In this document: in pieces, positions 2,559 through 55,393 of the stretch | Position numbering within the stretch: the stretch's first letter is position 1 | Layout: the number at the start of each line of letters is the position of its first letter | Origin: a virus | Reading direction: 5' to 3' (one strand) | IMG/VR virus record: IMGVR_UViG_3300038696_000205 | Coordinates: 55,323 to 119,322 of that record | DNA: 64,000 bases | Position numbers and translations under genes: made by a program | The notes under the pieces: model-generated | What the model was told of the DNA's origin: nothing | Database searches by the model: none | What the model saw: the letters and a program-made list of their open reading frames with translations, nothing else

Positions 2559-3584
2559 TTATTTAAAGAAATATTTGAAATTTTCTCCACCATAAGCATC
2601 CTTGGTCAAATTAATCATTTCGCCAACACTATAATCTCGTTCCTCAATCTTAAATTCATTAACGAAATCCTTGACTCCGAACGAACATGCGCCAGTAATT
2701 ATCCTGTAACATTCTATCGCATCACCAAATGACAATACGTTATCCAACGTTAACCCTTTGTAATCTTCCACACACTTATTACTTATCTTAAATAATAAAT
2801 CAAGTTTAGCTTCTTTAATGGTTTCACCGTGCGCCCATCTATCCTCACCATCGGTAACTAAATAAAGTTTATTCTCATCGCTTAATTTCTTCACCTCATA
2901 TACATTACCCCGTTTATGTAGCACTTCGGTGAACACCCCATCAACCTTTACGTATTTCCCATCTTGCCAAAATATTGCCTTTGGGGGTAGACTTTTTTGA
3001 ATCGATGTAACCTTATCCAAATATAAGTGACCACCCACCGTAGGGTTAAATCCTTCTGGAATCATTGTAAGTGAGTTTAAGTCTAAACTACCCCCAACCG
3101 TAGGATTAAATCCTTCTGGAATATTTTTAAGTGACCTTAAGTATAAACTACCATCCACCATAGGATTAAACCCCCCTGGAATCGATTTTAGACTACTTAA
3201 ATCTAAAGTACCACCAACGGTGGGATTGAATCCTTCTGGAATCGATGTAAGTTTATATAAATCTAAATCACCACCAACGGTGGGGTTGAATCCATCTGGA
3301 ATAGAGATGAGATTTTCTAAAAATAAACCCCCACTAACGATTGGGTTAAATCCTTCTGGAATCGATGTTAGGTAACCTAAATATAAACTACCACCAACAA
3401 TTGGGTTAAAGCTATCTGGAATCGCCGTGATATTATTTAAGAATAAATGATTTCTGACTTTAGGATTAAACCCATCTGGAATCGATGTGAGTAAATTTAA
3501 GAATAAATTATCGTTAATTATATCAATTCCTAAGAATTGATTTTCCGTTATATTTGCATATTGCATTAATTCTTCTTTAGTCAT
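2559..3584 (-). CDS. LRR-like 20-residue repeat protein (paralog A)
   Basis: 341 aa. A ~15-residue N-terminal piece (MTKEELMQYANITENQFLG) is followed by nine to ten 20-residue repeats of the type LTSIPEGFNPTVGGDLYL, a leucine-rich-repeat-like solenoid. The last ~120 residues form a non-repetitive domain (WAHG, ECYRIITGACSFGVK, YGG) shared with the 562-aa paralog at 5325. No signal peptide, so probably cytoplasmic or virion-borne. A protein-binding role is an inference from the fold. Confidence 0.8.
   Translation of the reverse strand: MTKEELMQYANITENQFLGIDIINDNLFLNLLTSIPDGFNPKVRNHLFLNNITAIPDSFNPIVGGSLYLGYLTSIPEGFNPIVSGGLFLENLISIPDGFNPTVGGDLDLYKLTSIPEGFNPTVGGTLDLSSLKSIPGGFNPMVDGSLYLRSLKNIPEGFNPTVGGSLDLNSLTMIPEGFNPTVGGHLYLDKVTSIQKSLPPKAIFWQDGKYVKVDGVFTEVLHKRGNVYEVKKLSDENKLYLVTDGEDRWAHGETIKEAKLDLLFKISNKCVEDYKGLTLDNVLSFGDAIECYRIITGACSFGVKDFVNEFKIEERDYSVGEMINLTKDAYGGENFKYFFK
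3000..3540 (-). repeat. Tandem 60-bp repeats inside paralog A
   Basis: About nine consecutive 60-bp units, each encoding one 20-residue repeat and marked by the recurring TCCAGA(A/T)GG segment. Several units are nearly identical to units in the paralog 3 kb away. Confidence 0.9.
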
Positions 3585-4874: not shown

Positions 4875-5267
4875 TTATTTATTATTTGTGTAAATTTCCT
4901 TAACCAATGACATCAAAGATTCTTCGGTAATTATAACCTCATCAGGGTTTTCATAACAATCGTCCATTTCATGCGTCTGTGTATGAACCCTACCATCGGG
5001 TAAATTTGTTACCCTTGGCTCATCAAGTTCGATAAGACCGCAGTATTGTACACCGTAATTAATTTCCTGTGGGTCACTTGGTTTTGTCTTTGGTATGTCG
5101 TCAGCCCACGCATTCATATCGAATAATGGTTTACCATCATTACCTATAATCGTATCCCAACCCTCAAACTCAAAATTTCTGATTGTTTGTACGGGAATAC
5201 CCTTACCTATAACTAATGCTAATTTTTCTTTTTCGTTGATAAAAACTTGTTTGATTCTTACTTCCAT
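4875..5267 (-). CDS. Hypothetical protein (130 aa)
   Basis: Acidic soluble protein with a mixed alpha/beta look. Contains a central LPDGRVHTQTHEMDDC segment but no motif I can name. First gene of its transcript, promoter at 5291-5298. Confidence 0.6.
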   Translation of the reverse strand: MEVRIKQVFINEKEKLALVIGKGIPVQTIRNFEFEGWDTIIGNDGKPLFDMNAWADDIPKTKPSDPQEINYGVQYCGLIELDEPRVTNLPDGRVHTQTHEMDDCYENPDEVIITEESLMSLVKEIYTNNK

Positions 5268-5324: not shown

Positions 5325-7013
5325 TTATTGAAAGAAATGTTTAAATTGCTGACCACCATAGCTATCTTTGGTTAAATCAATCATTTCCTCAATCGTATAG
5401 TCCTTATGCTCGACCTTAAATTTCTTAACGAAATGCTTAACACCGAATGAACATGCACCAGTTATCACCCTGTAACACTCGATTGCTTCCTCAAAGGGAA
5501 ACACGCTATCTAGCGATAAGTCCTCATAATCCTTTTTGTTTCTGTTACTTATCTTGTAGATTAAATCTTCTTTTGCATCGTTTAATGTATCACCATGCGC
5601 CCACTTACCCTGACCATCGGTGATAAGATAAAATTCTATAGGGTTGTTTAATCTCTTAACCCTATGGACATTACCCCTTTTCTTAACCACCTCAACGAAT
5701 ATTCCATCGACCGATATATATTTACCATCTTGCCAAAATAACGGTTGCCCGTTTAGTTTGGTGTGATTAATATATTTAAGATTTTCTAAATATAAATTAC
5801 CACCAACAATTGGGTTAAAGCTATCTGGAATCGATGTAATCTTACATAAAATTAAACGACCACCAACGATTGGATTAAATCCTTCTGGAATCGATTTTAG
5901 ACTACTTAAATCTAAAGTACCACCAACGGTGGGATTGAATCCTTTTGGAATCGATATTAGACTACTTAAATCTAAATCACCACCAACGGTGGGATTGAAT
6001 CCTTCTGGAATCGATGTAAGTTTATATAAATCTAAATCACCACCAACGGTGGGGTTGAATCCATCTGGAATAGAGATGAGATTATTTAAAAATAAATTAC
6101 GACCAACGTTCGGATTAAATCCTTCTGGAATCGATGTGAGATTATTTAAAAATAAACTACCACCAACAATTGGGTTAAAGCTATCTGGAATCGATGTGGG
6201 ATTATTTAAAAATAAATCACCACCAACGGTGGGGTTGAATCCATCTGGAATAGAGATGAGATTATTTAAAAATAAATTACGACCAACGTTCGGATTAAAT
6301 CCTTCTGGAATCGATGTAAGTTTATATAAATCTAAATCACCACCAACGGTGGGATTGAATCCTTCTGGAATCGATGTAAGTTTATATAAATCTAAATCAC
6401 CACCAACGGTGGGGTTAAATCCTTCTGGAATTGATGTAAGCTTACTTAAATCTAAAGTAGAACCCACCGTAGGATTAACCCCCTTTGGAATCGATGTGAG
6501 TGAATCTAAATATAAACTACCCCCGACCGTGGGGTTAAAATCCTCTTGCATTGTTGTGACTGAATCTAAATATAAACTACCTCCAACCGTAGGGCTAAAC
6601 CCCTTTGGAATCGATTTAAGCTTACTTAAATGTAAGCTTAGACCCACCGTGGGTTTGAACCCATCTGGAATTGATGTAAGCTTATTTAAATATAAAGTAC
6701 CCCCGACTGTAAGGTTAAACCCTTCTTGCATTGATGTGATATTATCTAAGTATAAATCACGACCAACCTTAAGATTAAATCCTTCTGGAATCGATGTAAG
6801 TGAACTTAAATATAAATTACCCCCAACTGTGGGGTTAAACCCTTCTGGAATCGATGTAAGTGAATCTAAGTATAAATCACGACCGACTTTAAGGTTAAAT
6901 CCCTCTGGAATCGATGTGAGATTATTTAAAAATAAATTCCCGATAATTGCATCAATACCTAAGAATTCATTTTCGGTTATATCTGCATATTCTAATAAAT
7001 TTTCTTTAGTCAT
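5325..7013 (-). CDS. LRR-like 20-residue repeat protein (paralog B)
   Basis: 562 aa. Same plan as paralog A: N-terminal MTKENLLEYADITENEFLG, then ~20 repeats of the type LTSIPEGFNPTVGGDLDLYK, then the shared ~120-residue C-terminal domain (WAHG, ECYRVITGACSFGVK). Repeat number is about double that of paralog A. The opposite strand stays open through the array only because of the 60-base period. A role in binding a variable partner is inferred, not shown. Confidence 0.8.
   Translation of the reverse strand: MTKENLLEYADITENEFLGIDAIIGNLFLNNLTSIPEGFNLKVGRDLYLDSLTSIPEGFNPTVGGNLYLSSLTSIPEGFNLKVGRDLYLDNITSMQEGFNLTVGGTLYLNKLTSIPDGFKPTVGLSLHLSKLKSIPKGFSPTVGGSLYLDSVTTMQEDFNPTVGGSLYLDSLTSIPKGVNPTVGSTLDLSKLTSIPEGFNPTVGGDLDLYKLTSIPEGFNPTVGGDLDLYKLTSIPEGFNPNVGRNLFLNNLISIPDGFNPTVGGDLFLNNPTSIPDSFNPIVGGSLFLNNLTSIPEGFNPNVGRNLFLNNLISIPDGFNPTVGGDLDLYKLTSIPEGFNPTVGGDLDLSSLISIPKGFNPTVGGTLDLSSLKSIPEGFNPIVGGRLILCKITSIPDSFNPIVGGNLYLENLKYINHTKLNGQPLFWQDGKYISVDGIFVEVVKKRGNVHRVKRLNNPIEFYLITDGQGKWAHGDTLNDAKEDLIYKISNRNKKDYEDLSLDSVFPFEEAIECYRVITGACSFGVKHFVKKFKVEHKDYTIEEMIDLTKDSYGGQQFKHFFQ
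5800..6940 (-). repeat. Tandem 60-bp repeats inside paralog B
   Basis: About nineteen 60-bp units. Blocks of two to three units recur almost exactly within the array (~6000-6080 and ~6240-6320) and in paralog A (~3180-3310), pointing to recent recombination. Confidence 0.9.
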
Positions 7014-7961: not shown

Positions 7962-8633
7962 CTAATCTTTTTCCTTAAATTTTTTATCTAATTTATTCTT
8001 GACTTCTTCCCAAGTGTAAAACCACTTCATCTTACCCTGTGCTATACCCACCAATAGCTTGAATAACTCTTCTCCGTGCATTACATCGTGCTTATCACTA
8101 TGTATGAACTTGCCATCCACTATTTCATCAATACCCACTTTAAAGTCCTTAAAATAGCTATAGTACGTATATTTGAAAGGAATCTCTAGGTAAAATCTTA
8201 ACCTCCATAATTTACCCAATGGTTTTAGGTCTTGATATCTTACACCTTTATTATCACTTAAATAGTTATTTTTAAATAATAACTTCTTATCGTCTAGCTT
8301 TGGGGTGTAATCACTATTTAATTTCACCCATATTTTACTTTTACCATCGGTATAGAAATTTGATATTAAATCTTTTGGAATGTACGTCATATTAAGTTCG
8401 GGGTCAGTAGATGCTATAACCTTACCTAAATTTTTAACAGTACCTAATGTACTATTAGCGAACGATACATCGAATTTATCCTCTATTAAATGAATACTAG
8501 ATGATTCGCCATTAACGATATAGTCACCGATTTTTACGGCACGTTTTATAACAATATACAAATCATGTCTATCCACGGTATGATTTTGTATTCGATTTGT
8601 TCTTATTCTAACTATTCTAGCTTTTTTATACAT
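7962..8633 (-). CDS. Hypothetical protein (223 aa)
   Basis: Basic, beta-rich N-terminal half and a Lys-rich C-terminus (KKFKEKD) ending in TAG. No family recognised. Lies 9 bases from the 115-aa gene, so the two are one unit. Confidence 0.6.
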   Translation of the reverse strand: MYKKARIVRIRTNRIQNHTVDRHDLYIVIKRAVKIGDYIVNGESSSIHLIEDKFDVSFANSTLGTVKNLGKVIASTDPELNMTYIPKDLISNFYTDGKSKIWVKLNSDYTPKLDDKKLLFKNNYLSDNKGVRYQDLKPLGKLWRLRFYLEIPFKYTYYSYFKDFKVGIDEIVDGKFIHSDKHDVMHGEELFKLLVGIAQGKMKWFYTWEEVKNKLDKKFKEKD

Positions 8634-8642
8634 TTTTTATTT

Positions 8643-8990
8643 TTAGATTGTACCAAGATAGCTATGTGGTAATGAACCATACTCCTCTACATAGCCTTTG
8701 GCTCTATCTTCGGACGTACCCTCGGAAATATATTGTTTAATAACTTCTACTTTAAACCCGTCCAACATTTGTTTTGCAACTTTATGGCTTGTCTCGTTTC
8801 TAGCATCGGTTGTGTATTCCTCACTAGCAACCCTCTCTATCAACTTAAATATTAATCTTAGACCAGATTGTTGTAATGTTCTATGTTCACGGCAGAAAGC
8901 ATCTATGAACTCCGTATGGTTATCTTGGTTATAACCGTTTACAAAGTTTGTTAATTCGTTGGCTAATTCTTTCCCAGTTAATTTTGACAT
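8643..8990 (-). CDS. Hypothetical protein (115 aa)
   Basis: Helical soluble protein with no cysteine motif and no membrane segment. First gene of a two-gene unit; TATATTTG promoter at 9017-9024. Not recognised. Confidence 0.6.
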   Translation of the reverse strand: MSKLTGKELANELTNFVNGYNQDNHTEFIDAFCREHRTLQQSGLRLIFKLIERVASEEYTTDARNETSHKVAKQMLDGFKVEVIKQYISEGTSEDRAKGYVEEYGSLPHSYLGTI

Positions 8991-9016
8991 GATGTTTATA
9001 TTTAATATTAGTTTAG

Positions 9017-9024
9017 CAAATATA
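9017..9024 (-). promoter_or_regulatory. Promoter element TATATTTG
   Basis: Minus strand CTATATTTGC about 30 bases upstream of the 115-aa gene. Confidence 0.6.
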
Positions 9025-9049
9025 GTTAAATTAATCTAAGATACCAAAT

Positions 9050-9316
9050 TTAATTCAAGAAAAATGGTGCGTACTCGTAATTTAAGATTATTTTATTCTC
9101 ATGGATTTCCATGACTCTGTTGACCACCGAGATATTATGTTCGACAACCTCTATTGTATCATTACATTTTTCAATCATAGAGTAAATACCCTTTACCATT
9201 GAATCATCTTTGATAAACCTTTGTAGGCTCAATAATCTTTCCAACTCTATTGATATTGCGATTAACTCACTATAATTATCAATTTGTTTAATAACTTTAA
9301 ATTCAAGACGTAGCAT
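9050..9316 (-). CDS. Hypothetical helical protein (88 aa)
   Basis: Long amphipathic helices with heptad-like leucines, probably coiled coil. No motif recognised. It has its own promoter, and the TnpB element has inserted directly upstream of that promoter. Confidence 0.55.
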   Translation of the reverse strand: MLRLEFKVIKQIDNYSELIAISIELERLLSLQRFIKDDSMVKGIYSMIEKCNDTIEVVEHNISVVNRVMEIHENKIILNYEYAPFFLN

Positions 9317-9342
9317 AATTTATATATTTTATTTGTTCATAG

Positions 9343-9350
9343 CAAAGATA
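9343..9350 (-). promoter_or_regulatory. Bacteroidota-type -7 promoter element (TATCTTTG)
   Basis: Minus strand GTATCTTTGC, only a few bases outside the right end of the TnpB element. Confidence 0.6.
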
Positions 9351-9355
9351 CAACC

Positions 9356-9402
9356 AGTGAACTACCCACCCACGCCAGAGGCGATGGGATGGGCTTCGGG
9401 TT
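9356..9402 (-). mobile_element. Right end of TnpB element 1
   Basis: Minus strand: CCCA-T-CGCC-TCT-GGCG-TGGG hairpin, then TGGGTAGTTCAC. The TGGGTAGTTCAC segment is repeated exactly beyond TnpB element 2 (~62755), which marks the shared right boundary. In IS200/IS605 elements this end also supplies the guide (omega) RNA, so an RNA here is expected from family knowledge. Confidence 0.65.
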
Positions 9403-10558
9403 TCATAGAGTGTGCGTTATTACTAACGTCTAATTTCCTCTCCACCTTTGTAATCGCCAGTTCCTGACGATATATTTTTAATCCTTCATTTAAAATGTTC
9501 TTTGCAGCGTTTAAATCACGGTCTAATTTATGACCATTCTTGCAAGTCCATTCTCTAATTGAAAGATTTAAGTCTTGGTTTATCCAACCACATTCACAAC
9601 ACGTTTTCGATGATGGATACCAGCGATTGATTTTAACGACTTCTTTGTCATTCCAATCTGCTTTGTATTCAAGTAACCGAACAAATGTTCCCCAACTTGC
9701 ATCTGATATGTGTTTGGCAAGTTTATGGTTCTTTACCATACCTTTAACATCCAAATCTTCTAATGCGATTATATCATAATCAGATACTAATTGGTGAGAT
9801 ACTTTATGCAAGTTATCCATTCGTGAATTGGTTATCTTCTCGTGAATAAGTGCAGTTTTTCGTCTTTGTTTTTCAAACGAACCACTACCTTTTGTTTTAC
9901 GAGAAAGATGTTTTTGTGCTTTCGCTAACTTTCTTTCATATTGCTTCGTGTATTTATTATTCTTAAATTTTATTCCATCTGATGTAATTGCAAAATCCTT
10001 TAAACCCAAATCAATTCCGCAAACTTTGCCAGTTTTTTCTTTTGGAATATATTGTTCCTCTGAAAGAATACTTACAAAGTATTTTCCAGTTGGAGTTTTG
10101 GAAAACGTGCATTTACCAATTTCACCTTTTACTTCACGATGAACATTTATTTTAATCCCTTCCTTAAATTTTGGTATGTAAAGTGTTTTATTTTCCAGTT
10201 TTGCAAATTGTGGAACAGTAAAAGTATTTTTCTTTTTTCTTGACTTAAATCTCGGAAACTTCGCTGTACCACGAAAGAAGTTCACATAGGCAGTATCCAA
10301 ACATCTTAAAGAGAACTGTAATGATTGACTATTCACTTCTTTAAGCCAAATAGTTTCTTCTTTTTTCTTTAATCCAGTTAAAGTTGCCGCTTGTTTGTAA
10401 TAATTATCAGACTTCTTATCTACTTGATATTGTTCTTTACGCTCATTTAAAAAGTGATTATAGACGAAACGGATACAACCGAAATGCTTATCCAATAGCG
10501 TTTTCTGCTCTTGGTTAGGCTGTAATTCAAATTGATATGTCCGAAATATTGTTTTCAC
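9362..10558 (-). CDS. tnpB: TnpB (IS200/IS605 OrfB) RNA-guided nuclease
   Basis: 398 aa, normal family length. N-terminal FRTYQFELQPNQEQ and FVYNHFLNER are the TnpB helical region; RuvC residues appear as GIDLG (~185), ALEDLD (~275) and DRDLNAAKN (~350). A zinc ribbon lies between the last two (CCECG...CKNGH). Known family role: nuclease guided by RNA from the element's right end. No tnpA is present, so movement would need a transposase in trans. Ends in TAG. Confidence 0.9.
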   Translation of the reverse strand: MKTIFRTYQFELQPNQEQKTLLDKHFGCIRFVYNHFLNERKEQYQVDKKSDNYYKQAATLTGLKKKEETIWLKEVNSQSLQFSLRCLDTAYVNFFRGTAKFPRFKSRKKKNTFTVPQFAKLENKTLYIPKFKEGIKINVHREVKGEIGKCTFSKTPTGKYFVSILSEEQYIPKEKTGKVCGIDLGLKDFAITSDGIKFKNNKYTKQYERKLAKAQKHLSRKTKGSGSFEKQRRKTALIHEKITNSRMDNLHKVSHQLVSDYDIIALEDLDVKGMVKNHKLAKHISDASWGTFVRLLEYKADWNDKEVVKINRWYPSSKTCCECGWINQDLNLSIREWTCKNGHKLDRDLNAAKNILNEGLKIYRQELAITKVERKLDVSNNAHSMKPEAHPIASGVGG

Positions 10559-22808: not shown

Positions 22809-23342
22809 TTAAGTAGTTTTTAATAATATTTCCTTAACTTTCTTTTTAGCTTTAAAAAGTGTAGCTTTTGAGGTCCCTGGGTTCAACCCAAGTTCTTTGG
22901 TTATTTCATTGTGTGAATAACCGTCTAACACAAACATGTTAAATATAGTTTTATATTTTGGACTTAATAAGTGAATCGCATTAAATATTTCACTTAAGGT
23001 ATATTGACTTTCCAAATCATATTCGGAATCATCTGATTCAAATTTAGATAAGTCCGTATTCTCCGAATACTTAATCTTCAAGGCCCTTGTTTGGTCAACA
23101 CAATAATGAATGCATAAACCTTTGACCCAAGCACCTAGTTCGGCAACCGTATCACCTATAAATAAATCTATTTTATCGAATATTTTTATAAAGCATTCCT
23201 GAATATAATCTTTACCAGTAGCTTCGTTCGGTACATATCTCATACACGTATTAAATACGGTTGAATACATCATATTATATAATTCATCCTGTGCCTTACT
23301 ATCCTTAATAAGACATAATTCTATTGTTTTTCTAAACGCCAT
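22809..23342 (-). CDS. ECF-type sigma factor
   Basis: 177 aa. Region 2: AQDELYNMMYSTVFNTCMRY and DYIQECFIKIFDKI. Region 4: LSPKYKTIFNMFVLDGYSHN followed by EITKELGLNPGTSKATL. This is the arrangement of Bacteroidota ECF sigmas. Its start overlaps the prs stop. It is the second sigma factor in the window and may switch transcription to a gene class. Confidence 0.85.
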   Translation of the reverse strand: MAFRKTIELCLIKDSKAQDELYNMMYSTVFNTCMRYVPNEATGKDYIQECFIKIFDKIDLFIGDTVAELGAWVKGLCIHYCVDQTRALKIKYSENTDLSKFESDDSEYDLESQYTLSEIFNAIHLLSPKYKTIFNMFVLDGYSHNEITKELGLNPGTSKATLFKAKKKVKEILLKTT

Positions 23343-24340
23343 TATTTTCCAACTTTTAATAATTCAATACTAATACTTTTACTAATCCCCTTTATAGCTT
23401 TGGCTATTTGGTCAGCTATACTGACCTCTGTTACAATTTCATCTATATCGATATATAAGTCACCTAAAACGAATCCCTCGCCTATCGGTAACGAATCGGT
23501 ACAGTAGAATTTTTCCAAACCAGAATTAAATAACCTCTCCAACGCTGAACCACTTAACACACCGTGAGTTATAATTGCACTAACACTCTTTGCCCCCATT
23601 TCCAATAAATGGTCGGCAGCTTTGACCAAAGTACCGCATGTGTCGGCCATATCATCGATAATCATAACGTCCTTATCGGTAACATCACCTATCAGGACCA
23701 TCCTGTCAATTTCATTTGCCCTGATTCTAGTCTTATCTATCATAACCATTGGTAGGTCATAATCATATAAGCTGGCAACCCTATCTCTAAACCCCTTAAC
23801 CCTTTTGGTGGCCCCAGCATCTGGACTACATAGAATTAAGTTATGGTTTGTTGCTTCATGATAATCCGCTATGATTTCATCGAACATATATTTACCCTCC
23901 ATGTGTATAACTGGAATATTGAAAAAGCCTTGTGTTTGGTTGGCATGTAAGTCAAATAGGATAACCGATGTTGCCCCTCTATTTTCTAACATCTCGGCAA
24001 TTATTTTACCACCTATGGCCCCTCTTGGTTGGTTCCTTTTGTCACTTCTCCCATATGGGTAGTAGGTGATTATTGGTATGATTTCCTTGGCACCAGCCCT
24101 TTTTGCGGCATCTATCGCTAGGTTCAACATCATAATCTTATCTGAATCGTTAGGTGATGTGACTATGTAAATAGTTCTACCTCTAATCGATGTCAGATAG
24201 TCAGCCGACATTTCCATATCTGAAAATATTTCCGTATTGATTTCACCCTCTACAAATGCAACTTCTTCTTTCCTTAATTCGGAGAATAATTTACTTTTTA
24301 AAGTTTTTCTTTTTTCTAAAAAAAATATGATTGGTTCCAT
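23342..24340 (-). CDS. prs: Ribose-phosphate pyrophosphokinase (PRPP synthetase)
   Basis: 332 aa, usual length. Key parts: YYPYGRSDKRNQPRGAIGGK (catalytic flexible loop), FDLHANQTQGFF (ATP/metal His), CSPDAGATKRV and VMIIDDMADTCGTLVKA (PRPP loop). Makes PRPP from ribose-5-phosphate and ATP. PRPP is the co-substrate of the phage NAMPT, so the gene fits the NAD+ module. Follows ECF sigma with a 1-base overlap. Confidence 0.95.
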   Translation of the reverse strand: MEPIIFFLEKRKTLKSKLFSELRKEEVAFVEGEINTEIFSDMEMSADYLTSIRGRTIYIVTSPNDSDKIMMLNLAIDAAKRAGAKEIIPIITYYPYGRSDKRNQPRGAIGGKIIAEMLENRGATSVILFDLHANQTQGFFNIPVIHMEGKYMFDEIIADYHEATNHNLILCSPDAGATKRVKGFRDRVASLYDYDLPMVMIDKTRIRANEIDRMVLIGDVTDKDVMIIDDMADTCGTLVKAADHLLEMGAKSVSAIITHGVLSGSALERLFNSGLEKFYCTDSLPIGEGFVLGDLYIDIDEIVTEVSIADQIAKAIKGISKSISIELLKVGK

Positions 24341-27028: not shown

Positions 27029-27742
27029 TTATAATATTTTTGAATAAAGTTCGTCAAATACTTCTTTTACTCCTTTTGTTGCGGTCTTTTTTATGTATTT
27101 AATACCAGTACCCAACTGAGGACCTTCCTCGAAATAATCAACTGGGTCTGGGTCTATGTAGTAAACTTTAGTGTTTGGTCCCACCATATCCATCATACCA
27201 ACAGTGTAATGTATTTGGAATGATGTTCCCACCATAATTAAATAATCCGCTTTTGATAGTGCCCTAGTAGACTCTTCCATATTAAATGGATACTCACCAA
27301 AAAATACGGTATGTGGCCTTAACTGTGACCCCTTGATACATTTATCACCTAAATTTAATGAACCCCTACAATCATAATATAATTCTGGGTCTAAGGTACT
27401 TCTACACTTCATTAATTCACCGTGTAGATGTAGTATGTTCTTGCAACCAGCCTTTTCCAATAAATCGGATACGTTTTGGGTAACATGGGTGACATCAAAA
27501 TGCGTATCAAGTTCGGCCAATAATTTATGTGCCGAATTGGGTTTGGTCTTATGTAGGGCTTCCCTAAGCATGTTATGAAAATCTAATACCTTACTCTTAT
27601 CTTTTTTCCAACCCTCAGTGGTCGCAACTTCATCTATCTTGTAATTATACCAAAGTCCGTTGTCGGTATCCCTGAACGTATCTACGCCAGATTCTTTATC
27701 TAATCCAGCACCGCTGAATACTACTATTTTTTTTCTGCTCAT
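27029..27742 (-). CDS. Sirtuin (Sir2-family NAD+-dependent deacylase)
   Basis: 237 aa. VVFSGAGLDKESGVDTFR is the GAG NAD+-binding motif; VTQNVSDLLEKAG replaces the usual TQNIDxLHxxAG, with Ser where Asp is common; HLHGEL supplies the catalytic His; late VGTSFQIH fits the NAD+ pocket. Only a CRS...DCRG pair remains of the zinc site. It consumes NAD+ and releases nicotinamide, feeding the NAMPT step. The target is unknown. Confidence 0.85.
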   Translation of the reverse strand: MSRKKIVVFSGAGLDKESGVDTFRDTDNGLWYNYKIDEVATTEGWKKDKSKVLDFHNMLREALHKTKPNSAHKLLAELDTHFDVTHVTQNVSDLLEKAGCKNILHLHGELMKCRSTLDPELYYDCRGSLNLGDKCIKGSQLRPHTVFFGEYPFNMEESTRALSKADYLIMVGTSFQIHYTVGMMDMVGPNTKVYYIDPDPVDYFEEGPQLGTGIKYIKKTATKGVKEVFDELYSKIL

Positions 27743-31215: not shown

Positions 31216-31971
31216 TTATTTTTTGGGTATTAAGTTTGTAAATAATTCTCTTTCTTTTGTTATCCAGATTGCTGGGTTAATGGCCCACCTACTTCTTAGA
31301 GCTTCCGTATTTTCTTTTTGGAATTCATTATTTGTTGCCGCAATCTTATATATCTCCTTTGTAATCATCCTACCCCTTTTAAAACCATCGGGTTGGTCGT
31401 TCCAGTTAACGCCTTTGGTCATACATAAATCTTGCATACCACTTGTGTTAACACCATTAAGTTCTTTATGGCTAAATAGGGATTGTGCGGTCATACTAAT
31501 TGAATTTCTAACACAATCTTGTTGTGTCCATATAAAATAGTTTTCAACCTCAACAGCTTCTGATATTGTGAATACCCTACTATCAAAAATAGCTAATTTA
31601 TCGGTTATGTTATGGGTTCTCATATAATCGTTAAAATATGTACTGGCCATTGATGCTGTAACACTAACAATTTTCTGTATAGCACCATCAAAAAATGCGG
31701 ATGTACCAATTTTTTCAAAATCCGTTAACAATATACTGATTTCATCTGATTGCGTATACCCCAATCTTGCACCTTGGATATTGGCACATAGCATTGAGGT
31801 CGTGTAATCCATGGCATCCATTAACCTGGTATCATACGGTATTTCAAATCCCTTGGTGAAGGTATGAAAAGCTTTACCGTCCATTCTTATAATAGAATAG
31901 GTACGTCTAGGTAAGTAACTTTTTGACCTAGATTCGTACATTTTCATTCTATCACCTAATTCATCTTTCAT
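31216..31971 (-). CDS. Thg1-like 3'-5' RNA polymerase
   Basis: 251 aa. YSIIRMDGKAFHTFTKGF and LGYTQSDEISILL are the two catalytic carboxylate motifs of the tRNA-His guanylyltransferase family. Bacterial and phage members (TLPs) add nucleotides at the 5' end of truncated tRNAs in a template-directed 3'-5' direction. Placed near the tRNA territory and RNA-end enzymes, a tRNA 5'-end repair role is the natural reading. Confidence 0.9.
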   Translation of the reverse strand: MKDELGDRMKMYESRSKSYLPRRTYSIIRMDGKAFHTFTKGFEIPYDTRLMDAMDYTTSMLCANIQGARLGYTQSDEISILLTDFEKIGTSAFFDGAIQKIVSVTASMASTYFNDYMRTHNITDKLAIFDSRVFTISEAVEVENYFIWTQQDCVRNSISMTAQSLFSHKELNGVNTSGMQDLCMTKGVNWNDQPDGFKRGRMITKEIYKIAATNNEFQKENTEALRSRWAINPAIWITKERELFTNLIPKK

Positions 31972-33187: not shown

Positions 33188-35779
33188 TTAGTAGTTATTA
33201 GAATCCTTATTAGGTGCGTAAACACTTAATAATCTTAATCTTTCATCCAATATTGCCTCACTAGCTGGGTAGTAATTATCACCTCTATTTAAACACTTGG
33301 GCATGTTAGCCATTTGCTCCTTAATTCTACGTCTAATTTGTATAAAATCATCATCCTGACCAGGACCAAAAGGTTTATTAAGATTAGTACCATCAAAATA
33401 AAGAACCATGGCATCTTCACCCATTTCATTTTCAAAGACAATCGTAGTCTTTTTGGATAAAGCTTCTGGTGAACGTAATACCTTGAATGGACCTGGTAAT
33501 GTAGTTTTACCTAGTGTCTCGGAAAACTTAACTACACCTATATTAGCAAAACCCATTGCAGCCAGAGCATACTTTGCGGATAGATTATCTCTCTTTAGAC
33601 CATTTCTACCGCCACCACCTTGACCGAATAGACCCCAAGCGAAGGGTGCATAACCTTTTTCAATCATAGCCATCATAATATCCCACATATTTTTATGTGT
33701 CATACCATCACCCTCTATGAACCTTAAGGTGGTCCCAAAATACCATGTTTTCCCATCAATTATTTCAGTGGTACAAAGGTTGTTTTTAATGGCCAACTCA
33801 ATAGTCCATAATACTTGTTCAAGCGCATCACCAGAATTACCACAAACCATAGTAGACCTATTACGTTTAACCATAATCTTACCAGATGGTACTTGGACAC
33901 AATACACCTTTCCCACATAATTTATATTATTCTTTTTAATTGATTGACCACCGATTAAATTATTTCTAGTTATGTGTAATGTCCAAACATTATTAAATTT
34001 ATCACTTCTAGTATCCTCATATTCTGAAATCAAACAACCATACCCACAAGATAATACAATTAATTCAACAATATACACTATTTCTTTATTAGTTGTGTCA
34101 AATTTAATTTTATTTTCGTTTCTAACACAAGAGTCCCAATTACTTAATTCATCGATAAATTGTTTACACCAAGTTAATGATAAAGACGTTAAATCTACCC
34201 ATTCAAAATTTTTAGTTACGTTTATACTTATATCTAACCATATATAAATGGTGTAATTATTTGGTCGTTTAGGTTCAATTTTTTCAGAATATTCAAATCC
34301 ACCATTTTCGCAAATTTCTATAAGTTTATCTCTTTTTCTTTTTTTAGTGAAATTAAACCTATATACTTTTTTACCGCTAATTAACCCTTCATTCACTCTT
34401 TCATGTTTTGATGTAAATGACCCATCAGCTTGAAATGCAATTAAAAATCTTTCAAAATTAGTTAATCTTTTATTGGTTTCCTTAACTTTTGCACTTCTAA
34501 CCATATATTTACCATGATAACCAATATTTCCAACTTCTTTAGCGTATTGTGATAAAAATTTATTATTTTTCTTATAAATCATTTTATGTTCTGGAGTCAC
34601 TAATAAATCCACTTTTCCTTTATTCCCACTAAAATGACACATTTCTCCATTATAATCATAAATTTGTTTTTTTAATGGTTGAATAAATTCATAGGAACCA
34701 TCATCTAAAACTTGTGCAACTAATGTTTCATCTGTTAAATCCTTAAATAAAACCCATCCATCATTACTTAAAATAAGTGTATCATCAGAATAACAATCTG
34801 GTCTGCCAACAACTATCTTATCGTTCTTAAGAGTTTCACTTAACTTTGCAAGCGGTAATAACATTTGTTCGACCGCAACGAAATAGTCGTTACAATCGGC
34901 AACCATCGAAATAAAAGAACCATCCGTACATGAGTTATAAATAGCCTCATAACAATCATTCTCAAATTCATAACCTTGGACATTTCTATGTGCTAATGCA
35001 TTAACTGAATTACCGACTGGTTGCTCGCTAGCATTTTTCCAGGCTTGGTAGGCTCCAGAGCACGTATCGGTTCCAGGGAATGTATATAGTTGGGCCATAC
35101 TCAACACTTCGGATTCCTCGGCTGTAATGCCAGCTCTATCACCGAAATCGGTTAACATAATAGATGCTAGGAATATTGCTTTTTCTTCTTCAATATTTGG
35201 ATATACCATTCGAACCATTGATTTTAGTTTAAGCATCCAATGTTCGTTCTGGGTTATTTTTTCGGATACGGCCCAAGTTTGAAGTAATTTGGATTCAAAC
35301 CAAGCAGCAAGAACCCCCATACCATCGATATCGCACACGATTTGCATATTGGGTTCGTTAGGATAACAAACGGAACCTTCTGGTAACGCCTTTATCTTGA
35401 TTGGTGGTCTACCGTTGAATTCGTCAACAACTCTTCGCCATATTTCTTCTGGGAATTCATATTCGGATAGACCACGAGGTCCAACTTTAAATGTTTTTAA
35501 GAATTCCTTGGCCTCATCAATTTCTTCATGGGTAATTGGTTCGAAGAATAATTTTTCAAGTATAATCTGTAACCCACCGAATATAATTCTATTATCATCG
35601 GCAGTGTAAATTGTTGGGTCAATCGTTATTAATTGTTTTCTAAAAACATTATAATATGTAGATTTTTGCTTAACTAAATCACTCTCGAATTTATTAGACC
35701 CCACCGTATAGGCATCGGCCATTAACAATCTGGGCGTTTTATGAATTTTATTCTTGGGTAATATTAACTCTTTTTCCAT
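33188..35779 (-). CDS. nadV: Nicotinamide phosphoribosyltransferase with an intein
   Basis: 863 aa from MEKELILPKNKIH (a start at 35824 would overlap the upstream gene). Without the 320-residue intein it is ~543 aa, close to NAMPT length. Extein motifs include LLMADAYTVGSNKFE, FGDRAG, LPEGSV, VGRPD/SGDAL (active site) and FGQGGGG. Makes NMN from nicotinamide and PRPP. Lies 22 bases after NadM-Nudix in the same transcript. Confidence 0.93.
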   Translation of the reverse strand: MEKELILPKNKIHKTPRLLMADAYTVGSNKFESDLVKQKSTYYNVFRKQLITIDPTIYTADDNRIIFGGLQIILEKLFFEPITHEEIDEAKEFLKTFKVGPRGLSEYEFPEEIWRRVVDEFNGRPPIKIKALPEGSVCYPNEPNMQIVCDIDGMGVLAAWFESKLLQTWAVSEKITQNEHWMLKLKSMVRMVYPNIEEEKAIFLASIMLTDFGDRAGITAEESEVLSMAQLYTFPGTDTCSGAYQAWKNASEQPVGNSVNALAHRNVQGYEFENDCYEAIYNSCTDGSFISMVADCNDYFVAVEQMLLPLAKLSETLKNDKIVVGRPDCYSDDTLILSNDGWVLFKDLTDETLVAQVLDDGSYEFIQPLKKQIYDYNGEMCHFSGNKGKVDLLVTPEHKMIYKKNNKFLSQYAKEVGNIGYHGKYMVRSAKVKETNKRLTNFERFLIAFQADGSFTSKHERVNEGLISGKKVYRFNFTKKRKRDKLIEICENGGFEYSEKIEPKRPNNYTIYIWLDISINVTKNFEWVDLTSLSLTWCKQFIDELSNWDSCVRNENKIKFDTTNKEIVYIVELIVLSCGYGCLISEYEDTRSDKFNNVWTLHITRNNLIGGQSIKKNNINYVGKVYCVQVPSGKIMVKRNRSTMVCGNSGDALEQVLWTIELAIKNNLCTTEIIDGKTWYFGTTLRFIEGDGMTHKNMWDIMMAMIEKGYAPFAWGLFGQGGGGRNGLKRDNLSAKYALAAMGFANIGVVKFSETLGKTTLPGPFKVLRSPEALSKKTTIVFENEMGEDAMVLYFDGTNLNKPFGPGQDDDFIQIRRRIKEQMANMPKCLNRGDNYYPASEAILDERLRLLSVYAPNKDSNNY
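33836..34795 (-). other. Intein in NAMPT
   Basis: Cys1 starts block A (CYSDDTLILSNDGWVLF), block B has LLVTPEHKM, block F is GKVYCVQVPSG, block G ends MVCGN with Ser+1. Middle part (FLIAFQADGSFTSK) is a LAGLIDADG/DOD homing-endonuclease core. It splits VGRPD from SGD, the PRPP-binding active-site motif, so NAMPT needs splicing to work. Confidence 0.88.
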
Positions 35780-35801
35780 ACTCTTATATTTAAAATTTAT
35801 A

Positions 35802-36788
35802 CTATGCTTCACTACCTTCCGCAATTAACTTTGACCTTAATATTTTAATATCAAGAGTAGTATCGGTAATCTTTTTTATTAACTCTTGCATAAGTTCAAC
35901 ATGTTCTTCCATAATCCTATACTTGATTTGGCTTTCGGTCGCAAATTCAGTTATACTTACCCACTTAAGTTCGGCTATATCATCGGATGCTTTTGCCAAT
36001 CCCCAACTACGTGGTGCAATGAACAAGGTTGTCATAATACCAGATTCTTCTTTTCTATAACGCCAATCGTCAATTTGTTTGGAGGTAACATATGTTAATG
36101 GCCCCATTTCGAAATTACCACCAGTTTCTTCCATGAATTCACGTCTAGCAGCAGTTTCGTATGAGGAATCATTTCTATCAACGAACCCACCAATAAACCT
36201 TAAATTTTTCTCACTTGCTTTCCTGGCCAATAACAATTCGGCATCTTCATTATATACCACTATATCAACTGTGGGATATGTAACCGCCCTTTGCGCATAG
36301 TTTGCGTGTATGACACCAGCTCTAAAATCTCTTGACTCACGTATTTCTTTTGAAATCTCATTCCTAATCTGCGTACCACTAACTGGTCCATTGGAGATTA
36401 GTTCCGTAGTTGCGTGTCTGCCGTGGTAATGTGGTATAAAAGAATCCCTACTACCATATAACAATGCGGAAGCTTCACCAAACACCATATTAATCTGTGA
36501 ATCCAAACTGTTACTCCAAGTAATGTCGCATCTATTATCCTTTTGTGGTAATACTATGGCATTGGGAACATATTCTTGAATCATCGCTTTTCTAGTTGCA
36601 AAATCAAGTGGATTTATCTTAGTGTTTGGAGTATTGGATACCCCAAGGAAAATCAATATTTTTCTATGGTGTTTAGCAACCATATCAATTAACCCTTTAT
36701 GGGCATCATGTAATTCATCAACTTGGAAACGGGCCACAAGTACACCGCAAGTGTAATCCTGAGGGTCAATTATTGTTCTTATATTCAT
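35802..36788 (-). CDS. nadM: Bifunctional NMN adenylyltransferase / Nudix hydrolase
   Basis: 328 aa from MNIRTIIDPQDY. N-terminal ~170 residues: nucleotidyltransferase with VARFQVDELHDAH in place of GxFxPxHxGH and VSGTQIRNE as the ISSTxxR element. C-terminal half: Nudix box GFVDRNDSSYETAARREF-MEETG. Relatives (for example Synechocystis slr0787) make NAD+ from NMN and hydrolyse ADP-ribose. First gene of the NAD+ unit, promoter at 36806. Confidence 0.92.
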   Translation of the reverse strand: MNIRTIIDPQDYTCGVLVARFQVDELHDAHKGLIDMVAKHHRKILIFLGVSNTPNTKINPLDFATRKAMIQEYVPNAIVLPQKDNRCDITWSNSLDSQINMVFGEASALLYGSRDSFIPHYHGRHATTELISNGPVSGTQIRNEISKEIRESRDFRAGVIHANYAQRAVTYPTVDIVVYNEDAELLLARKASEKNLRFIGGFVDRNDSSYETAARREFMEETGGNFEMGPLTYVTSKQIDDWRYRKEESGIMTTLFIAPRSWGLAKASDDIAELKWVSITEFATESQIKYRIMEEHVELMQELIKKITDTTLDIKILRSKLIAEGSEA

Positions 36789-36805
36789 AGTATATTTATT
36801 TAATG

Positions 36806-36813
36806 CAAATGTA
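36806..36813 (-). promoter_or_regulatory. Promoter element TACATTTG for the NAD+ genes
   Basis: Minus strand CACTACATTTGCATT with TTTG ~20 bases further upstream. It lies between the terminator of the upstream transcript and nadM. Confidence 0.6.
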
Positions 36814-36835
36814 GTGAATTTATTTAACATCTGCA

Positions 36836-36866
36836 AATAAAAAAAGGGTAATTTTATTTACCCTTT
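36836..36866 (-). terminator. Rho-independent terminator
   Basis: Minus strand AAAGGGTAA-ATAAAA-TTACCCTTTTTTT, overlapping the last codons of the 184-aa gene, just before the NAD+ promoter. Confidence 0.8.
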
Positions 36867-46523: not shown

Positions 46524-46597
46524 TAAGGAGAATGGGATTCGAACCCACGACCTCGCCCGTCCAAGGGGCGTAAACAACCTGACCGTTATCTCTCCTT
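46524..46597 (-). tRNA. tRNA-Pro(TGG)
   Basis: AAGGAGA/TCTCCTT acceptor, perfect anticodon stem CGCCC/GGGCG with loop CTTGGAC, T arm GTGGG-TTCGAAT-CCCAT. D arm slightly long. Confidence 0.85.
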
Positions 46598-47303: not shown

Positions 47304-47372
47304 TCAGGCCAGGAGAATCGACACTCCATCTTCATCCCCAATGGATGATATCTTCAATTAGACCATGGCCCG
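47304..47372 (-). tRNA. Pro-like tRNA-like gene, loop CATTGGG
   Basis: Acceptor CGGGCCA/TGGCCTG (C1-G72), D stem GTCT/AGAT with loop AATTGA, anticodon stem TCATC/GATGA with loop CATTGGG as at 46287. T arm is one base short (loop GTCGAT). May be non-functional. Confidence 0.5.
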
Positions 47373-47377
47373 TTGCA

Positions 47378-47443
47378 GTTGAACTAGTGGGATTCGATAC
47401 CACATTACCTAATTAAGGTGACTTCAATTAGTCGATAGTTCAA
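47378..47443 (-). tRNA. Shrunken tRNA-like RNA (66 nt)
   Basis: Perfect acceptor TTGAACT/AGTTCAA, D arm GACT-AATTGA-AGTC, T arm GTGG...CCAC with ATCGAAT. The anticodon arm is only ACCT-TAATT-AGGT with a five-base loop, so decoding is unlikely. D loop is shared with the neighbour at 47304. Confidence 0.5.
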
Positions 47444-48243
47444 GATGAATGCTTGAGTGGTGGGCATATATGTTAAAATTTAATAGGGTTTCCCCTCTTA
47501 CACACACCTTTCATTTCTGTCAGGTAGTCAACATTAAGGTAGCATTAGAGTTGCTATTACTCACTACACACGTTAATATAAACTTTCTTCAACACCCAGT
47601 CTCCTTGCGAGAGTTCAGAGGGGCAAACCTCTTACTAATGACATTTACTAGAAGTTTCAGTCTTGGCCTTGTGAGCTTACTAACTGCCTATATATTTCAA
47701 TAGGATAACTTAATTTTCAACGTATGTTCAACAGAACTTTTACTTTTGTTATCATTTAAAGATATTTTTTTGTTATTCTCTTAAATCCAGGATGTGTCTG
47801 TTGATTGACAATCGTACTACCTTTTGAGTAGGTTAGATTACGACACCCCAATGTACCTTTTTACAGCTACGTCAATAAATTCACTTCAAACCTTATTGTA
47901 AGCCCCAACCGAAGTCAGGTAACTTACTAGTTATCCCATGAACTTTCATGATGAATTAAGCCTCTAGGATTTTTAATCCCCTTGACCCAATTCTAACTAT
48001 TCATTTATTTGTATTTCTACATCAACACCCAACGAGAAAATTGAATGTAGCACCTCCGAGCAGTGCTCTCTTAGTGCCGTAAATAGCTTGCTTACACGGA
48101 TTACATAAATGTAACGCAATAGCTGTTTCCGAAACTACTGCTTTATCCCATCACTGGATTATCCTTAATTACCCGAAGGTAAATGGAGCATAAGCACCCC
48201 AATTTTTTAATATTTTAAAGAACGTTTGTTTTTTATTACTCTG
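47444..48243 (-). ncRNA. Candidate large structured RNA (~0.8 kb)
   Basis: Promoter at 48244-48280, then ~800 bases without a convincing ORF on the minus strand but with many hairpins: TTACC-TTCG-GGTAA (UUCG tetraloop), GCAGTAG/CTATTGC, TTACAT-TT-ATGTAA, GAGCA-C-TGCTC inside GCAC/GTGC, GGATT-AAA-AATCC, CATGAA-AG-TTCATG, TCTC-GCAA-GGAGA (GNRA-like). It runs into two tRNA-like genes. Size, density and tRNA linkage recall GOLLD/ROOL RNAs of phages; homology not tested. Confidence 0.55.
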
Positions 48244-48280
48244 CAAATATACTACTTTAATTTGATACTTGCAAGATTTT
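48244..48280 (-). promoter_or_regulatory. Strong promoter for the large RNA
   Basis: Minus strand: A tract, CTTG, 20 bases, TATATTTGC. Same layout as the promoters at 50356, 56934, 57399 and 61053. Confidence 0.75.
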
Positions 48281-48380: not shown

Positions 48381-48415
48381 CAAATATAATACTTTATTTT
48401 TAAATAGTCAAGCTT
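48381..48415 (-). promoter_or_regulatory. Strong promoter
   Basis: Minus strand A tract, CTTG, spacer, TATATTTG. Drives the small RNA at 48300-48375. Confidence 0.65.
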
Positions 48416-48740
48416 TTTTGAAAATATTTTTAATAAAAATAAAAATCCTTTCTTTTAATGATGCTTTATATAATTTATACTCTTCATCTTGGATACTATA
48501 ATTAGTGTCGTACTTTTTAATATACAGTAAACTTTTTCGTTTTCTGAATACACTTAGGTATTCGTAATTTTCACTAACTTCAAAAGTTTCTACCCATTCA
48601 TTGATTAGATTTATTTGAAGGTCTATATCTAGGTTGAGCTTATTAACTTCAAACTCAAACTTTAAAAGTAAAGCCTTTATTTGGTCGTTAACTAAATCAT
48701 CCTTTGAATATCTTATGTATTTGTATTTATTTAAATTCAT
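48408..48740 (-). CDS. Hypothetical protein (110 aa)
   Basis: Lys/Leu/Tyr-rich helical protein with a hydrophobic C-terminal helix (ERIFIFIKNIFKK). Its last codons overlap the promoter of the small RNA. Not recognised. Confidence 0.55.
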   Translation of the reverse strand: MNLNKYKYIRYSKDDLVNDQIKALLLKFEFEVNKLNLDIDLQINLINEWVETFEVSENYEYLSVFRKRKSLLYIKKYDTNYSIQDEEYKLYKASLKERIFIFIKNIFKKA

Positions 48741-52958: not shown

Positions 52959-53031
52959 TGATTCTAATGGGGGTCGAACCCATAACCGTCATTTTTAGAG
53001 AATGCAGCTCTGCCAGTTGAGCTATAGAACC
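52959..53031 (-). tRNA. Amber suppressor tRNA (anticodon CTA)
   Basis: GGTTCTA/TAGAATC acceptor, D stem GCTC/GAGC, T arm ATGGG-TTCGACC-CCCAT, normal spacing. Anticodon loop is CTCTAAA with T33, so positions 34-36 are CTA, which reads UAG. Anticodon stem GCATT/AATGA has one mismatch at 27-43. Promoter directly upstream at 53058. The amino acid cannot be told from sequence. Confidence 0.82.
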
Positions 53032-54357: not shown

Positions 54358-54885
54358 TTATTTTATATATTTAGGTAAAACTTTATCCGTTAACCAAACA
54401 CCATTTTTTGATTTATAGAACTTGACCCCATCAGCATTCATGCTAGCCGAATCTATTGTTAGTATAATAGCCTTACCTCTTCTATTCGCAACTTTTGTCG
54501 CTGTTTCTATTTCATCACTTAAATGAACGTGTTGCCTATTCATTTTATTGAGGCCAACTTTTCTAATATCTATCGTAAACCTTTCAACTGTTCCATGATA
54601 TAATTCAATTGGTGGCCTTTCAGCTATTAACTTTAAATCTACCTTTAATGAATGACCCTGATTGGCCCTGATTTTGGTTATATCATCATTAAAGGCAAAT
54701 CTTTGTTTATCATTACCATCAACAATACTGATTAACTCCGTTAAATTAATATCGTTACCGTTCTCATTTAATTTGGTTAATAATATATCAACCTCGGTCC
54801 AACCATTTTTATCTAACTTAATACCAATAGTTTCTGGTTTATGCCTTAACACTAAACTTAATAATCTACTTATATTGTACCCCAT
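54358..54885 (-). CDS. kptA: RNA 2'-phosphotransferase KptA/Tpt1
   Basis: 175 aa, usual length. Conserved parts: ISRLLSLVLRHKPETIGI, GWTEVDILL, NDKQRFAFND, IRANQGHS, LYHGT, and MNRQHVHLS. Catalytic Arg-His-Arg-Arg set is consistent with LRH, RANQGH and RQHVH. It transfers an internal RNA 2'-phosphate to NAD+, giving nicotinamide and ADP-ribose 1'',2''-cyclic phosphate. It lies inside the tRNA territory, beside a tRNA with a D-loop insertion. Confidence 0.95.
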   Translation of the reverse strand: MGYNISRLLSLVLRHKPETIGIKLDKNGWTEVDILLTKLNENGNDINLTELISIVDGNDKQRFAFNDDITKIRANQGHSLKVDLKLIAERPPIELYHGTVERFTIDIRKVGLNKMNRQHVHLSDEIETATKVANRRGKAIILTIDSASMNADGVKFYKSKNGVWLTDKVLPKYIK

Positions 54886-55254: not shown

Positions 55255-55393
55255 TGGAGACGACAGGGTTCGAACCTGTGGCGCACCCTTCCTTCTAGGC
55301 CGCTCTACCTTAAGGTTAATTAATACCAATTTTATAGTTTTATGTACAATCATTCTATAAAATTCTCTATGCGACCCTCTGAGCTACATCTCC
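55255..55393 (-). tRNA. tRNA with a ~70-nt insertion in the D loop
   Basis: Acceptor GGAGATG/CGTCTCC, D stem GCTC/GAGC and T arm ACAGG-TTCGAAC-CCTGT are normal. Between D-loop parts AGAGG and GTA lies ~70 bases with a perfect AATTTTATAG/CTATAAAATT stem. Removing it restores AGAGGGTA. The anticodon region (GGCCT-AGAAGGA-AGGGT) is odd, so identity (Phe/Leu/Ser) is open. Confidence 0.65.

Follow-up and report, generated by a model that had tools for sequence, protein, structure and literature searches.

A divergent GOLLD RNA heading the tRNA array of an uncultured phage

What is encoded in the roughly 800 nt that separate an ORF at 48408-48740 from a tRNA array on the minus strand of an uncultured phage genome? 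The locus belongs to a 64,000-nt stretch of DNA, hereafter the window (positions 55,323 to 119,322 of the IMG/VR record IMGVR_UViG_3300038696_000205), from a 119-kb contig. It occupies the head of the array, which starts at 46597, extends on the minus strand down to 43902 and comprises, according to ARAGORN, tRNAs for Pro, Gln (three copies), Tyr, Lys, Thr and Gly, among others. An earlier note had described the locus as a promoter-driven, hairpin-rich RNA, which might be a member of GOLLD or ROOL or represent a new class. We place the gene of a GOLLD-like non-coding RNA of about 800 nt at 47444-48240 (minus strand), with its putative 5' end set by the promoter and its putative 3' end by an adjacent tRNA-like element. 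For the neighboring protein of 158 aa, a search for relatives found none.

The strong promoter of the earlier note was recovered by motif search on the minus strand as a -33 element TTG at 48274-48272, a 20-nt spacer and a -7 box TATATTTG at 48251-48244. The arrangement TTG-N20-TAT[AC]TTTG is present in all seven homologs, always with a spacer of exactly 20 nt, and lies 39-51 nt 5' of the motif GGGGUGCUUAU in each of them; in two homologs the -7 box reads TATCTTTG. Within the window, the minus (coding) strand carries 33 occurrences of TTG-N17-23-TANNTTTG and the plus strand 6, compared with about 12.75 expected for both strands together, and this coding-strand excess fits a transcription signal of the Bacteroidota type. 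The motif corresponds to the -33/-7 promoter consensus of Bacteroidota and not to an E. coli sigma-70 promoter. Its conservation establishes the promoter upstream of the GOLLD-like RNA (48274-48244), from which transcription presumably proceeds.

The reported lack of a minus-strand ORF over some 800 bases also held, as the longest ones located wholly within the region comprise 31-40 aa and begin with TTG. The opposite strand contains an 84-aa ORF. Among the seven homologs, the longest ORFs vary in place, strand and frame, and none of constant length, strand or frame recurs; a hidden protein gene was rejected for lack of such a conserved frame. Since folding of the single sequence was unconvincing and only modestly significant (z of -1.74, with 2/20 shuffles equally good), comparative tests were used.

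The Rfam GOLLD model RF02032 matched the window on the minus strand over model positions 1-416 at 47849-47450 with 57.6 bits (E of 1e-13; 1.0e-15 when the 119-kb record is searched by itself). This score is below the curated gathering cut-off of 150 bits, a curation threshold of the model rather than a structural property, and the best member of the clade described below reaches 97.4 bits, whereas canonical phage GOLLDs attain 160-294 bits. Eight canonical loci, which the Rfam consensus had retrieved as a blastn query, scored 160-287 bits when scanned. An Rfam scan of the window at gathering thresholds reported tRNAs only, and when isolated phages were searched with the region by distant blastn, chance-level pieces alone were returned. 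The retrieval cut-off of E <= 1e-5 that was used for GOLLD previously (PMC12286853) is reached with RF02032 by the window, L096, L098, L136 and L139. Because the RF02032 score is low, homology was tested by further means.

A search of related phage contigs with RF02032 yielded one further match (57.1 bits), located on a 73-kb contig, and the other related-phage records searched gave none at E <= 0.01. This homolog shares 63% identity with the window across 879 nt, has the same promoter, the same gene order and the same place before the tRNA array, and occurs as a near-identical copy in a second contig. A 5'-domain pattern retrieved a further five window-type loci (L130, L131, L136, L137, and L139) as well as three canonical GOLLDs of 284-294 bits; the pattern had been drawn from both groups, so that recovery of the canonical ones is suggestive but not independent. 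With RF02032, L136 scores 97.4 bits (E of 2e-24) and L139 32-42 bits, varying by search, and three of the seven clade members (L130, L131 and L137) escape the model entirely at E <= 10, although their identity to the window is 62-73%. All seven window-type members stem from uncultured phages, and their pairwise identity is 59-74% with the exception of the L130-L137 pair (94%). The presence of L131 in a record that is negative with RF02032 demonstrates that the Rfam model has false negatives and misses part of the real diversity of GOLLD.

The 3' domain is represented by the full-length RF02032 match (47450-47849, minus strand). When the structure derived from Rfam was imposed on a sequence-only alignment of the seven sequences, 86.4% of the cells were paired, and 34/67 pairs, corresponding to 65 cells, had changed on both sides, compared with 4-13 pairs in slid controls; none of 500 shuffles was as high. 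In a comparison of the window with the first homolog, aligned by fitting to the GOLLD model, 58/78 comparable GOLLD pairs were standard in both sequences with 23 double changes (0-6 in slid controls), and in a sequence-only counterpart, for which the pairs of the window alone were projected, 56/67 pairs were kept with 15 double changes (0-4 in slid controls). The covariation among homologs for which the earlier note had proposed to look is therefore present, and the structure of both domains is secure because it is based on the comparison of homologs and not on single-sequence folding.

Several elements of the 3' domain can be related individually to the known GOLLD structure. The hairpin AGAGG-UUUGCC-CCUCU at 47617-47632 (minus strand), which the Rfam model treats as an insertion, keeps its five pairs in all seven sequences with compensatory changes and is assigned to P21a by its likely equivalence to that of L122; in the cryo-EM GOLLD, P21a bears the intermolecular bridge B8. 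The neighboring hairpin CUCU-CGCAA-GGAG at 47601-47613 (minus strand) would be equivalent to P21b with the loop of bridge B9, and six of the seven members have the loop CGCAA. Comparison of these sequences with L122 thus suggests that both P21a and P21b are present in the clade, under hairpin assignments that are themselves putative, and the palindromic dinucleotide in the loop L21a (B8) is found in some members only. One stem, the P26 equivalent, is not conserved as in the model, with 37% of its cells kept, and P26 appears to be replaced in the clade by a short hairpin with a GAAA loop. By its RF02032 alignment position, an A/U-rich linker of low conservation and varying length lies at 47742-47785 (minus strand); its counterpart in GOLLD is disordered and located inside the cage (PMC12286853). 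At the 3' terminus, the motif CUCAAGC at 47451-47457 (minus strand; canonical counterpart AAUCUCAGC) is found in 7/7 members.

The 5' domain at 47850-48240 (minus strand), which corresponds to the cap domain in the cryo-EM GOLLD, is supported by RNAalifold covariation and the match of a dedicated model. Double changes affected 24/64 of its pairs, compared with 2-7 in slid controls, on a structure that RNAalifold had predicted from the same alignment. Since MAFFT misaligned parts of both domains when the clade was combined with canonical GOLLDs, 5' homology was tested with a covariance model (R1) that was built exclusively from the 5'-terminal ~110 nt of six canonical GOLLDs and run over 1.19 Mb. 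After the training loci, its next six matches were the window-type members except L096, each at the correct place and ranking above every unrelated source in the 1.19 Mb; the match in the window extends from 48202 to 48086 with 28.2 bits (E of 0.0045), and L096 gave no R1 match at E <= 10. The first hairpin, GGGG-UGCUUAUG-CUCC at 48185-48200 (minus strand), was aligned by hand for illustration only and also appears in the R1 alignments; its inner pair is G-C in the window, C-G in LR745206 and LR756502, and U-A in Acinetobacter phage Herod. Both tetraloop types of the earlier note were located on the minus strand. An extra hairpin UUACC-UUCG-GGUAA at 48169-48182, between the first and the GNRA hairpins, recurs as a UUCG-type hairpin at the matching place in other window-type members and is absent from the compared canonical 5' domains, and the GNRA-type hairpin CCA-GUGA-UGG at 48148-48157, which covaries and is followed by a UAAAG motif, has the canonical counterpart CCUC-GAAA-GAGG.

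Based on the 3' covariation, the 5' covariation and the R1 matches, sequence comparison indicates that both domains are homologous to those of GOLLD. The location in a phage near a tRNA island, as in GOLLD, also applies to the window. Of the readings left open by the earlier note, our analysis thus selects GOLLD, through the full-length RF02032 match, the 3' covariation and the 5' domain detected with R1: the RNA is a new, divergent GOLLD variant and neither ROOL nor a new class, an assignment that we regard as very probable with respect to membership and fold. A distinct class of large, structured phage RNAs that resembles GOLLD in a few hairpins only and has a fold and a function of its own would be compatible with the score below the Rfam cut-off, the three clade members undetected by Rfam and the differing P26. 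Such a class is nevertheless quite unlikely given a 3' domain that matches collinearly over its full length with 34 covarying pairs, a canonical 5' model that finds six members at the right place, and L136, which at 97 bits is intermediate between the window and the canonical members.

Seven nt after CUCAAGC starts a first tRNA-like element (47379-47443, minus strand), whose position is kept in all homologs and which consists of an 8-bp acceptor-like stem UUGAACUA/UAGUUCAA, a D-like arm and a T-like arm with the loop UAUCGAAU(C). The second element (47305-47372, minus strand) has a 7-bp acceptor stem, the D-like arm GUCU-AAUUGA-AGAU and an 8-nt T-loop UGUCGAUU. The two tRNA-like genes that had been reported here are real folds, but neither 47443-47379 nor 47372-47305 is called as a tRNA by default ARAGORN or Rfam; the second is classified as tRNA-Gln by ARAGORN under relaxed scoring only, and in both the D-loop lacks GG and the T-loop is enlarged. 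A search for the combination of acceptor stem, D-like arm, anticodon-like stem and 8-nt T-loop in 2.2 Mb found ten sequences, all of them on contigs of the GOLLD clade. Most of these elements lack the GG of the D-loop and their anticodon-like loops vary in length, which makes ordinary decoding doubtful. ARAGORN tRNAs were also detected downstream in the stretches examined at L096, L130, L131, L136, and L137.

Throughout the clade, CUCAAGC is followed at a distance of 6-8 nt by the start of a tRNA or tRNA-like element, and in four of the eight canonical loci scanned a normal tRNA is located 8-10 nt past the end of the RF02032 model. Because of the 6-8 nt spacing, we infer that 5' processing of the tRNA type could generate the 3' end of GOLLD, and the constant gap thereby provides a concrete proposal for 3'-end formation. 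That RNase P creates the mature 3' end by cutting at the tRNA-like element is conceivable, with a probability somewhat short of even. The further proposal that the degenerate elements (no GG in the D-loop, T-loop UAUCRAAU, variable anticodon-like loops) serve as cleavage or docking elements of RNase P instead of decoding tRNAs is tentative and rather doubtful; they would then set the 3' end of GOLLD and perhaps dock in the cage. As it always immediately precedes a tRNA or tRNA-like element, the RNA could alternatively be an extended 5' leader or a regulatory part of the tRNA operon, whose structure serves to regulate or process the tRNA transcript and does not act as a free RNA. This is highly improbable, since GOLLD occurs elsewhere without a tRNA directly downstream, e.g., at L123, and the GOLLDs of L133 and L141 are accompanied by an upstream tRNA-Met only.

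Identity with ROOL has next to no probability: it shares the size range and the tRNA linkage, but of the two Rfam models proposed as a check in the earlier note only GOLLD matched (E of 1e-13), whereas the ROOL model gave no match to the window even at E <= 5, and ROOL was ruled out accordingly. Non-functional spacer DNA with chance hairpins, to which the weak z score of single-sequence folding might point, is practically precluded by dozens of compensated pairs in seven sequences with ~60-73% identity between distinct members, a level of compensation that none of 500 shuffles reached.

For a divergent GOLLD, the following scenario can be proposed. The RNA would be expressed at the start of the tRNA array under the control of its own promoter of the Bacteroidota type and folds, as the covariation shows, into a 5' and a 3' domain connected by a variable A/U-rich linker, and an RNase P cut at the tRNA-like element, 6-8 nt past the 3' motif, might then release the mature 3' end. 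Cryo-EM showed that 14 copies of env-38 GOLLD build a cage composed of a 5' cap and a 3' ring (PMC12286853), and by homology the monomers of the window RNA would self-assemble into a similarly hollow, RNA-only cage; this analogy makes cage formation fairly probable. GOLLD binds ribosomes in pull-downs and sometimes contains tRNAs within its linker (PMC12286853), and it is described as accumulating during lytic growth and as dispensable in one prophage (cited in PMC7567579). Speculatively, an abundant cage or scaffold in the infected cell might hold phage tRNAs, parts of ribosomes or other cargo. Cage formation is known for few natural RNAs, GOLLD among them; the clade extends this family into phages with promoters of the Bacteroidota type, and its divergent sequences sharpen covariation tests of both intra- and intermolecular contacts.

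Further tRNA-like structures were observed in these phages. A fold at 48365-48298 (minus strand), upstream of the GOLLD promoter, has its own TATATTTG promoter and the T-loop UAUCAAAU and received no tRNA call from ARAGORN; two folds of this type are located downstream of GOLLD in L096 (~5018-5085 and 5167-5233). Beside the GOLLD of L139, the element at 8664-8734 (plus strand) reaches a tRNA score of 44.6 bits and has an encoded ACCA end, an anticodon-like UCA and an 8-nt T-loop UAUCGAUU. The phage array also has a candidate amber suppressor, the tRNA at 52959-53031 of the window (minus strand; anticodon CUA, 'Pyl' in ARAGORN). A promoter with a short transcribed unit at 47179-47042 (minus strand), including a possible 36-aa ORF MKNYTTTYQGKQYPQG... 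and with a clear intrinsic terminator behind it near 46980-46945, probably represents a conserved small RNA or peptide, because it is 73% identical to L096 5607-5739. The intergenic element at 49434-49296 (minus strand), in which a long inverted repeat UUGACAUAC...GUAUGUCAA closes internal hairpins, is possibly another structured RNA.

With respect to protein-coding genes, the minus strand of the window harbors a set for NAD and tRNA metabolism (23342-24340, 27029-27742, 33188-36836, 31216-31971, and 54358-54885), with PRPP synthetase-like, SIR2-like, NAMPT and NadM-NUDIX proteins, a Thg1-type tRNA-His guanylyltransferase and a KptA/Tpt1 RNA 2'-phosphotransferase; NAMPT, NUDIX and KptA were identified by Pfam and Thg1 by homology. 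The NAMPT gene is apparently interrupted by an intein-like insertion. At 8134-10209 and 11302-18188 of L102, the left part of record G000, a thymidylate synthase contains a long insertion and a Clp-type ATP-dependent protease is split over three ORFs with unrelated ORFs in between, as expected of inteins or homing elements. Two window proteins (2559-3584 and 5325-7013, minus strand) are composed of many near-identical SIPEGFNPTVGG repeats and share a C-terminal domain.

Among known systems, ROOL resembles the window RNA in size and tRNA linkage, and a cryo-EM cage has been reported for it as well (PMC12286853). It differs in the lack of any match in sequence or structure. In MALAT1/mascRNA, a long RNA acquires its 3' end through RNase P cleavage at a tRNA-like element; sequence and organism are unrelated and RNase P cleavage is only presumed for the window RNA, but the proposed cleavage and docking elements would, if real, be the phage counterpart of this arrangement. 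With GOLLD itself (RF02032; env-38, PMC12286853), the RNA shares the two domains, collinearity of the 3' domain over 416 positions, a hairpin loop UCAAAAG, covarying stems, the variable linker, the putative pair of P21a/P21b hairpins, the linkage to tRNAs, the location in phages and the length of ~800 nt. It differs from GOLLD in its score (57.6 bits versus 160-294 bits for canonical phage members), the P26 that is probably shortened to a GAAA tetraloop hairpin, the 3' motif CUCAAGC instead of AAUCUCAGC, the extra UUCG hairpin of the 5' domain, the Bacteroidota-type promoter and, in most clade members, the atypical tRNA-like element that takes the place of a normal tRNA right behind the RNA. 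The GOLLDs of the huge uncultured phages LR745206 and LR756502 (L121 and L122) are ~44% identical overall and, unlike the window, lack a UUCG hairpin after the first hairpin. They show the same succession of hairpins and single-stranded motifs in the 5' domain, with GGGNGNCUUAU, GNRA hairpin, UAAAG, UUGCG and GUAAGCAAG, and R1, which was trained partly on these two loci, finds the window. Both phages also encode a relative of the NadM-NUDIX protein of the window, and LR745206 additionally encodes a relative of Thg1.
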